This document shows positions 8,903 through 11,765 of a stretch of DNA of 36,101 bases, piece by piece (position 1 is the first letter of the stretch; each line of letters begins with the position of its first letter). The DNA lies in NCBI GenBank assembly GCA_031254615.1, contig JAIRUC010000133.1:1-36101 (forward strand). Reading direction: 5' to 3'. This DNA comes from Treponema sp. GTDB taxonomy: Bacteria > Spirochaetota > Spirochaetia > Treponematales > Breznakiellaceae. Made by a program: the position numbers and the translations under genes. The notes beneath the pieces were generated by a model. It saw only the letters and a list, made by a program, of their open reading frames with translations. It did no database searches and was not told where the DNA came from.

Positions 8903-10596
8903 TGAAAAAGATTTTTTTTATTTTTATCGTTTCTGTTTTTCTTGCCGGTTGTAATACTTCCGAGCCTGCTACAGTTGATTATTCGGAAGGTAATGTTGAT
9001 GGGGTACTTGCTTCTTCTCCTTTTGAAAAGGGGGTAAATTTTTCCGGATGGTTTGAATCATTCAGCGCTTCATCAATACCGTTTACTAAATACGTTGAGC
9101 AGGATTTTGTAAATGTAAAAAGCCTTGGAGCGGACGTGATACGGCTTCCTATCAGAATGCACAGCATGACAGGCGGGCAGCCCGATTATACGCTGGATCC
9201 GCTGCTGTTAAAATTTCTTGACATGGCGGTAGATTGGGCGGAAAAATACGGACTGTATATTATAATTGATAATCATTCGTTTGATCCGGTTAAAAACACG
9301 GAAGATGATATTGACAAGATTCTAATTCCTGTTTGGGAACAGGTTGCGCAGCGCTATAAAAATCGAAGCGATTATGTAATTTATGAAATTTTAAACGAGC
9401 CGCACGGCATTAGCGATGCCAGATGGGGAGAAGTACAGGGGCTGGCGATAAACGCGATTCGTAAACATGACACCAAACATTATATTATTGTAGGCGGCAC
9501 TGATTATAATTCTCTCGGGAAAATGTCTGCGCTGCCTGAATATTCGGATACAAAACTTATCTATACTTTCCATTTTTATGATCCGTATCTATTTACCCAT
9601 CAGGGCGCAGGGTGGGGCGGACCGCCGGTATTGAGTTCCCTTGCGGGAGTCCCTTTTCCGTACAACAGCAAACGTATGCCAAAAATTCCTGCGGAGCTTA
9701 AAGGAACATGGGTTGAAGGTTCTTTGAATTATAGTTACAGCAAGGATGCAGACCCTAACACGCTGTACAATACGTTAAACAAGGCGGTTTCTTTTTCCAA
9801 AGAGCGGAATGTTCCTATTTTTTGCGGTGAGTTCGGCGTATACATGATTAACAGCCTGAAAGAGGATCGTGTCAGATGGTACCAGATTGTCAGTAAAGCG
9901 CTTGCCAAGCGCAGAATTTCACGGACAAGCTGGGATTATTACGGGGGCTTTGGCATATTTAATTCCGAAGGAAGGGGGGATTTTTTTGCAGACCTGAATA
10001 CAGATGTGGTACGCGCATTGGGTTTTACGCCGCCGCCTCAAAAGCCGTATCAATATGAACCTTTTAAAACCGGTTTTACAATTTATGATGATTATCCAAA
10101 CAGAGACTTTACCTGTGGTTACTGGGATGAAAGTACGGATTTCAGTTTATACGATACCAACGCCGCAAAGGGCGATTTTTCGATAAGATGGGGAAATGCC
10201 TCACAGTACAATACTTTTTATTTTGTCTTTGAGAGAGGCGGAAATTTATCAGAAGTTGCAAATAACGGGATTCTTGAATTCCAGGCGCGTACCGAAGGAA
10301 AAGCTAAGTTTGACATACGGTTTGTTAACCCGGAAAGCCCCTCTTCAATTCCGTGGCGGATGCGTTATACGATAGATGATACGCTGCTTGTGCCGGACGG
10401 TAAGTGGCATACAATCCGTATACCGCTTAACAGCATGGAAGACTTAGGAGCGTGGATAAATTCTACACAAGAATGGATACCTTCACAGAATAAATTTTCG
10501 TGGAATAATATTAAACAACTGGATTTTGTTGCGGAACATGGGGACATGAAAGGCGTTTATGTTTGGTTTGATGATATTAAATTAGTTGTTCCCTAG
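8902..10596 (+). CDS. GH5-family lipoprotein hydrolase with C-terminal beta-sandwich (CBM-like) domain
   Basis: MKKIFFIFIVSVFLAGCNT lipobox; GH5 domain paralogous to the preceding ORF (YVIYEILNEPHG, FCGEFGVY); C-terminal ~180 aa resembles CBM11/CIA30-type modules. Confidence 0.9.
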   Translation: MKKIFFIFIVSVFLAGCNTSEPATVDYSEGNVDGVLASSPFEKGVNFSGWFESFSASSIPFTKYVEQDFVNVKSLGADVIRLPIRMHSMTGGQPDYTLDPLLLKFLDMAVDWAEKYGLYIIIDNHSFDPVKNTEDDIDKILIPVWEQVAQRYKNRSDYVIYEILNEPHGISDARWGEVQGLAINAIRKHDTKHYIIVGGTDYNSLGKMSALPEYSDTKLIYTFHFYDPYLFTHQGAGWGGPPVLSSLAGVPFPYNSKRMPKIPAELKGTWVEGSLNYSYSKDADPNTLYNTLNKAVSFSKERNVPIFCGEFGVYMINSLKEDRVRWYQIVSKALAKRRISRTSWDYYGGFGIFNSEGRGDFFADLNTDVVRALGFTPPPQKPYQYEPFKTGFTIYDDYPNRDFTCGYWDESTDFSLYDTNAAKGDFSIRWGNASQYNTFYFVFERGGNLSEVANNGILEFQARTEGKAKFDIRFVNPESPSSIPWRMRYTIDDTLLVPDGKWHTIRIPLNSMEDLGAWINSTQEWIPSQNKFSWNNIKQLDFVAEHGDMKGVYVWFDDIKLVVP

Positions 10597-11652
10597 AAGT
10601 TTTATCTTGGCGAGAATGTAGTCCAGTTTGTTTTGGTTAAGGACAGCGCGGCGGTACGGTTTATTGGGAATTTCCTTGATTTCGTAACCGCCGCGTTTTA
10701 TAAATTTTTTGCTTTTTCCTTCGATAAACCAGTAAACAAGGGCAATGTCCTTGTTTGTCAGTTCAATCGCGTTTATTCCTTTTTTGCCCAATGTACAGCC
10801 GGAATTAAAAAGGCCGGGAACGGGAAGTTCGTCCCCGTAAAGACTCTGTCTAAGAACATCCTGCCGCTCTTTGCGTTTCAGCTTACTCAATTCTTTTCTG
10901 AGGGCGGTAACTTCGTTTTCGATACGGATTCTGTCCTCGTTTTGGGAAGAAGGATATTTTTGGCAAAGCCGTTCAATTTCAAATTTGATGTAATCAAAGC
11001 GTCCCAATGATTCAAAGAGAGGCCGGTGGGTATGGCCGATAATCGAAAGGCACCTGTTTTTTATAGCAAACGCATACGCCTTTTTTTCTATGTGAAAACG
11101 TTTGTGCGGGTTACGCGCATCTATTATATTTCTTATTCCAAAAGGTTTTAAAATATAACGGATGCCAATTCCCATTAATTTATTAAAATTTGAATAGATG
11201 CTTGACAACTGATGACCGTGGAATACATAGGCAGGAACAGTTCCGGTTTCGATTTTTAATACCGTATACAACTGATAGGGGTAGGAACTGTACCGTTTAA
11301 GAAGCAGCTGTTCATCATGGTTGCCGATGATTTTGTAGAGCCTGTTTTCTCTTGCAAAAAGATTGAAAACTCTGTAAAGACCGACCCATTTTTCCCGTAT
11401 TAAATCCAGCGAGTACCTTTGAAGCTCCTCAATATCGCCGTTCAGTACCAGAATCCAGCCGTTTTTAAAGTAATATTCTTCCAGCAGGCAGATTAGCATT
11501 TCTCCGTTATCAATACTCAAGTCGTCCCTGTTGCCGCTGCCCATGTGCAAGTCGCTGATAATCAGGATTTTTCCGCCGTTTGAGATGTCGAGGCTTCCGC
11601 TGTTTTTTAGCTCTTCATCGGCAAGATGTGTAAGAAATAGTTTGTCAGACAT
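10582..11652 (-). CDS. calcineurin-like metallophosphoesterase
   Basis: IISDLHMGSG, LNGDIEE, IIGNHDEQ, VFHGHQ, IIGHTHRP metal-binding motifs. Convergent 15-bp overlap with the GH5 gene. Confidence 0.88.
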   Translation of the reverse strand: MSDKLFLTHLADEELKNSGSLDISNGGKILIISDLHMGSGNRDDLSIDNGEMLICLLEEYYFKNGWILVLNGDIEELQRYSLDLIREKWVGLYRVFNLFARENRLYKIIGNHDEQLLLKRYSSYPYQLYTVLKIETGTVPAYVFHGHQLSSIYSNFNKLMGIGIRYILKPFGIRNIIDARNPHKRFHIEKKAYAFAIKNRCLSIIGHTHRPLFESLGRFDYIKFEIERLCQKYPSSQNEDRIRIENEVTALRKELSKLKRKERQDVLRQSLYGDELPVPGLFNSGCTLGKKGINAIELTNKDIALVYWFIEGKSKKFIKRGGYEIKEIPNKPYRRAVLNQNKLDYILAKIKLLGNN

Positions 11653-11726
11653 TGGGCCATCAAGGACTTGAACCTCGGACCAAAAGATTATGAGTCTTCT
11701 GCTCTAACCAACTGAGCTAATGGCCC
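11653..11726 (-). tRNA. tRNA-Met (CAT), probably elongator; Ile2 (lysidine) not excluded
   Basis: Reverse complement GGGCCATTAGCTCAGTTGGTTAGAGCAGAAGACTCATAATCTTTTGGTCCGAGGTTCAAGTCCTTGATGGCCCA folds as a full cloverleaf; CCA not encoded. Confidence 0.93.
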
Positions 11727-11736
11727 CTTGGGATTA

Positions 11737-11765
11737 TTTGTAGCTAAAAAATGGATAAATGTCAA
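11737..11765 (-). promoter_or_regulatory. sigma70-type promoter of the tRNA-CAT
   Basis: Minus strand TTGACA (11760-11765), 17-nt spacer, TACAAA (11737-11742); tRNA 5' end 10 nt further on. Confidence 0.65.

Follow-up and report, generated by a model that had tools for sequence, protein, structure and literature searches.

Within the 36,101-nt window of Treponema DNA analysed here, the gene of a CCA-less tRNA-Ile2 runs without a single intervening nucleotide into the start codon of a metallophosphoesterase gene. From this anatomy we infer that the two genes are probably co-transcribed, and that RNase Z cleavage after the discriminator base would then yield both the tRNA and a leaderless mRNA beginning with 5′-P-AUG that would be open to translation. 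A wider proposition, for and against which we see equal weight, is that the locus represents a conserved tRNA-punctuation unit: RNase Z maturation of the essential tRNA-Ile2 would create a 5′-monophosphate leaderless mRNA, enzyme output would be tied to tRNA-Ile2 synthesis and RNase Z activity, and at least one more tRNA (tRNA-Val-UAC in genome G001) may do the same. If true, maturation of a tRNA would create the 5′ end of a bacterial mRNA with zero spare nucleotides, a scheme thought characteristic of mitochondria. The locus would then offer a natural test of whether processing-made 5′-monophosphate AUG ends are translated and could serve as a clean reporter of RNase Z; it would also exemplify a conserved coupling of an enzyme to the supply of a tRNA.

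Anatomy of the junction and its two genes

The features of the locus are collected in Table 1. The earlier note on this DNA had described a tRNA-CAT with no encoded CCA, a zero-nucleotide gap to the ATG, a sole promoter ahead of the tRNA and no earlier start codon, and each element of this description is borne out. The tRNA was delimited identically by inspection of the sequence, ARAGORN and the Rfam tRNA model (71.5 bits), and its discriminator A adjoins the A of the ATG, which is the first usable start in the ORF list for the 356-aa frame. CCA is likewise absent from all 36 tRNAs found in the genome of the window (G000). The promoter ends 10 nt upstream of the tRNA, and a consensus scan of the same strand returned no site in the tRNA or just upstream of the ATG. 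TTGACA at a spacing of 16–18 nt recurs in 13 of 15 zero-gap loci (see below). With a gap of zero, there is no room for a terminator or a Shine–Dalgarno (SD) sequence between tRNA and gene, and the DNA allows neither leader nor SD if the tRNA is cut off.

Table 1. Features of the tRNA-Ile2/metallophosphoesterase locus, in window coordinates
Feature	Position	Strand	Basis
−35 box TTGACA of the promoter ahead of the tRNA	11760–11765	−	sequence
−10 box TACAAA, 17 nt from the −35 box; weak match to TATAAT	11737–11742	−	sequence
tRNA-Ile2 (CAU anticodon, lysidine type), CCA-less, discriminator A at 11653	11653–11726	−	ARAGORN, Rfam
Junction of discriminator and A of the ATG, gap 0 nt; predicted RNase Z cut and mRNA 5′ end	11652–11653	−	sequence; prediction
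Gene of the 356-aa calcineurin-like metallophosphoesterase; mRNA predicted to be leaderless	10582–11652	−	ORF list, PF00149

An in-frame TAG lies at position −54 of the ORF, in the D arm of the tRNA, and is present in all 16 tabulated loci. As no ATG, GTG or TTG occurs between this stop and 11652 in the window, a longer protein is excluded. The opposite concern, that alignment of homologues might place the start further downstream, was resolved in favour of the annotated codon: the N-terminus of the metallophosphoesterase aligns from residue 1 in close relatives, and the start at 11652 is thus most likely correct. Start codons elsewhere were rejected on the combined grounds of the −54 stop and the N-terminal alignment.

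The identity of the tRNA follows from its body rather than its anticodon. G000 has three CAT tRNAs, and the one at the junction compares best with E. coli ileX (score 43; the other two score 29 and 14). It carries C4–G69 and C5–G68 in an Ile2-like body, and TilS was found in the same genome. By these sequence features it is a tRNA-Ile2 of the lysidine type. The ARAGORN label “Met” is based on the anticodon only, and tRNA-Met is ruled out by the ileX similarity together with the two C–G pairs. Among 40 genomes of the genus, the 3′ pattern of tRNA-Ile2 was matched at most once per genome (33 of the 40 have one match), and this essential tRNA is apparently single-copy in these genomes.

Judged by sequence, the 356-aa protein is a calcineurin-like metallophosphoesterase. 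It scores 23.6 bits against PF00149 (cut-off 21.5), and the metal-site motifs ISDLH...GD...GNHD...GHTH are invariant across 21 homologues; no sequence match was found in NCBIfam or PDB. The predicted structure is of moderate confidence (pLDDT 75), and Foldseek matched it to metallophosphoesterases generally, LpxH structures included, with low query TM-scores of 0.22–0.40. LpxH shares the metal-site motifs with this protein, as do other calcineurin-like metallophosphoesterases. An identity as LpxH is not supported, there being no sequence match and a query TM-score of at most 0.40 to LpxH structures.

Conservation and history of the zero gap

The earlier note had proposed an alignment of the junction across related treponemes, and here the exact zero gap proved to be kept in 15 of 40 same-genus genomes (G000, G002, G006, G007, G012, G013, G016, G020, G021, G022, G024, G027, G032, G036 and G060), together with a conserved ORF of about 350 aa. 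Two of these deviate in detail, as the start codon in G012 is GTG and the ORF in G016 is cut by the contig end. The named records of the genus are Treponema MAGs from, according to our reading of the isolate names, termite gut. In the protein tree all 14 placeable zero-gap rows fall into one clade of 21 rows (SH-aLRT 99). Of the remaining seven, three are separated from the tRNA by a gap, one shows a relic and three are unlinked to it. Elsewhere in the genus the tRNA and the gene are separated by 9 nt (G003), 97 nt (G010), 110 nt (G005) or 1195 nt (G009). Because the 9-nt spacer of G003 has no SD, an exact zero gap is not absolutely required.

The closest zero-gap pair differs by dN 0.09 and dS 0.74, and for most other pairs tried the dS correction failed, consistent with saturation. 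Compared with its nearest relative, the metallophosphoesterase of the window has a dN/dS of about 0.12, and the protein is, on these sequence comparisons, under purifying selection. Sampling across the phylum gave 24 tRNA or tmRNA ends with an ATG within one base; two of these were followed by an ORF of at least 80 aa, neither of them convincing. As none of these cases gave a convincing gene, a tRNA that joins a real, conserved gene stands out, and chance abutment of the tRNA-Ile2/phosphoesterase pair is ruled out by this sample together with the conservation in the genus. A search for the zero gap in other genera of the family produced a single candidate, which was discarded: G407 has an Ile2 tRNA followed by ATG, but TAA follows that ATG.

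Several loci carry traces of earlier arrangements. In G014 (L011), GATGGTCCA precedes the ATG as a leftover of the acceptor strand, the full tRNA being located on another contig. The 1195-nt insert between tRNA and gene in G009 (L095), which contains an ORF of about 260 aa of no recognised kind, has GGTTCAAGTCCCTGA copied at its end, two bases short of the ATG, and G010 (L161) carries a duplicate of CAAGTCCTCGAAGGCCCA between tRNA and gene. By sequence, these relics look like insertions or rearrangements at the tRNA 3′ end of the type that integrating elements leave, and they suggest that the abutment of tRNA and gene is ancestral. In G030 (L061; C6, near 90127) the phosphoesterase gene has apparently been lost, and GTGTTTTTATGCCGTCTTAC, resembling its first codons, still abuts the tRNA. 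The gene is also absent at this place in L066 and L077, where a hairpin and a T-rich stretch lie directly 3′ of tRNA-Ile2. In a further genome with no phosphoesterase detected (G011:C58, L250), an elongation-factor-G-like gene begins 40 nt after tRNA-Ile2.

The same history bears on the strongest of the alternatives, that the gene was once brought up to the tRNA by accident, through an insertion, a deletion or an element at the tRNA 3′ end, and the junction has since persisted by inertia, with low read-through expression. Insertions duplicating the tRNA 3′ end occur exactly here, relatives tolerate gaps of 9–1195 nt, and with essentially one clade involved, a single conserved bond could have persisted in this way. 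Still, we consider an ancestral accident unlikely: the exact gap is retained in 14 of the 21 clade rows despite high divergence, the protein is selected with no other evident expression signal, and promoters of the leaderless type are frequent in lineages without the link.

Proposed processing of the tRNA and translation of the mRNA

In the proposed mechanism, tRNA-Ile2 and the metallophosphoesterase gene would form one transcription unit served by the promoter ahead of the tRNA. RNase P would trim the 5′ end of the tRNA, RNase Z would cut after the discriminator, and the tRNA would be completed via CCA addition and lysidine modification while the 5′-P-AUG mRNA is read by leaderless initiation. 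Since the gap is zero, the downstream product would start with 5′-monophosphate-AUG. Moreover, we infer that both products can be left intact only if the junction is cut endonucleolytically, because a 3′ exonuclease would destroy the 1-kb message.

RNase Z is known to cut CCA-less precursors immediately 3′ of the discriminator and to be inhibited by Cs that follow it (PMC7479834, PMC8549757), and no such inhibitory Cs are present at the tRNA-Ile2/phosphoesterase junction. For B. subtilis RNase Z, partial cutting 5–6 nt downstream was reported with one CCA-less precursor in Co2+ (PMC7479834); cuts at that distance would remove the start codon and would count against punctuation by the tRNA. According to a review, leaderless translation in E. 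coli needs a 5′ phosphate (PMC9031893). Of the 40 genus genomes, 36 have an RNase Z scoring above the cut-off, and members of the CCA-adding family were found in six out of six genomes tested. The search gave no RNase Z for the 78%-complete G000 or for the zero-gap genome G036. The earlier proposal of a leaderless mRNA generated by tRNA processing is partly supported, its anatomy and logic being backed by the clade-conserved gap, the lack of an own promoter, SD or terminator, the CCA-less tRNAs, the RNase Z and CCA-adding enzyme of the genus, and the leaderless signature and unlinked promoters described below, while the failure to find RNase Z in the 78%-complete genome of the window speaks against it. 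A regulatory role of RNase Z over the metallophosphoesterase, perhaps through oxidation as known from streptococci (PMC8549757), is speculative.

Co-transcription could also occur without punctuation, the uncut tRNA–mRNA precursor being translated by a ribosome positioned upstream of or at the internal AUG. Fold prediction puts the tRNA cloverleaf in the precursor and leaves the AUG as accessible in the uncut RNA as in the cut one, and a weak SD-like AAGG in the acceptor strand precedes the ATG in some relatives; however, the stable cloverleaf adjoins the AUG, no SD is present in the window, and maturation of the essential tRNA must cut there anyway, so that we regard translation of the uncut RNA as improbable. 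The least probable alternative, a separate promoter within the tRNA gene giving a short-leader mRNA of its own and leaving the abutment of little consequence, can point to a weak TTGGTT-N15-TAATCT read by eye in the tRNA, but this sequence is fixed by tRNA function and poorly spaced, no site in the tRNA passes the consensus scan, zero-gap loci match a promoter poorly just upstream of the start (score 7), and the resulting leader would be without an SD.

Processing by RNase Z as proposed calls for a host that translates leaderless mRNAs, and a promoter signature indicates that this host uses such genes. We measured the distance between the end of the −10 box, with a −35 box at 16–18 nt, and the start codon in samples of G000 and G021 (L251–L290 and the window) as well as in G038, from another treponeme genus. 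In G021, the −10 box ends 6 nt before the ATG in 17 cases versus 1.57 expected per position (P 1e-12). The same distance stands out in G000 (7 versus 0.85 expected, P 3e-5) and in G038 (8 versus 1.0 expected, P 1e-5). The peak is absent at control ATGs, both internal in-frame and upstream out-of-frame, and nearly all genes contributing to it are without an SD. Given the peak and its SD-less genes, leaderless initiation is likely to be routine here. About 14% of the sampled ATG-start genes of G021 show the 6-nt arrangement, and the signature suggests that leaderless genes are frequent in termite-gut treponemes of this genus. For comparison, of 18 spirochaete genomes surveyed in 2011, six were predicted to contain leaderless genes, with a mean of 3.9% (PMC3160421).

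Homologues of the metallophosphoesterase gene that are unlinked to the tRNA, or distantly linked as in L098, are enriched in promoters 5–12 nt before the start (9 observed versus 1.35 expected). L093, unlinked but inside the zero-gap clade, has TTGACA-N18-TAAATT 6 nt before the ATG, and L098 has TTGACA-N18-TAGAAT 12 nt before the start. Where the tRNA link was lost, the promoter thus often appears to give, again, a leaderless or near-leaderless mRNA. Other lineages of the gene vary, some copies lying directly behind another gene and some having an SD-like match.

Known systems and other tRNA-led genes

In the tRNA punctuation of animal mitochondria, RNase P and ELAC2/RNase Z excise tRNAs and thereby make mRNA ends. 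The arrangement described here agrees in that a tRNA abuts a start codon, as observed, and that its excision would make the 5′ end of a leaderless mRNA, with CCA added later. It differs in that it involves a single tRNA–gene pair with its own promoter on a bacterial chromosome, in a host that also uses SD sequences; as its cut and shared precursor are predictions, we draw the parallel but do not assign the unit to this class. Leaderless mRNAs as such are familiar from bacteria, examples being actinobacteria, Deinococcus and lambda cI. Ordinarily they begin at the transcription start and carry a 5′ triphosphate. The mRNA proposed here would share the 5′-AUG and the lack of an SD, and the Treponema genomes display the 6-nt promoter signature; unlike in the ordinary case, its 5′ end would come from tRNA processing and carry a monophosphate. 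In Thermococcus kodakarensis, a tRNA-Lys lies in the long 5′-UTR of TK0306, forming a co-transcribed tRNA–mRNA unit (PMC4247193). One transcript for tRNA and protein gene is likewise predicted in Treponema, whereas for TK0306 a leader would remain downstream of the tRNA, as judged from the 159-nt UTR. Our search of the literature, mainly open-access, retrieved no bacterial report of a tRNA-derived leaderless mRNA.

Other tRNAs of the genus also stand close to protein genes. In G001 (C4, ~378–402; L221), tRNA-Val(UAC) runs with a gap of zero into the ATG of an ORF for a flavodoxin-like oxidoreductase of 198 aa (MRIFIVYAHPGEDSF...). This start is less certain, with an in-frame ATG inside the tRNA-Val, and the link is missing in two relatives. 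The tRNA-Val of G021 was considered as the lead of a second zero-gap gene and rejected, the ORF most likely starting 20 nt downstream, after GGAGG. In G006 (C71, 38807–38870; L234), 14 nt lacking an SD separate tRNA-Ala(CGC) from the gene of RNase Z itself, and RNase Z might here generate the 5′ end of the message that encodes it; the arrangement was not found in ten other genus genomes checked. In G000, the genes following tRNA-Leu-UAG and tRNA-Val-UAC have leaders of ~16–26 nt with SD-like sequences. In the same genome (C70, L249), a secreted leucine-rich-repeat-like protein has its ATG AAA ATG 3 nt behind tRNA-Val(GAC), which makes it a second tRNA-led gene with a near-leaderless layout.
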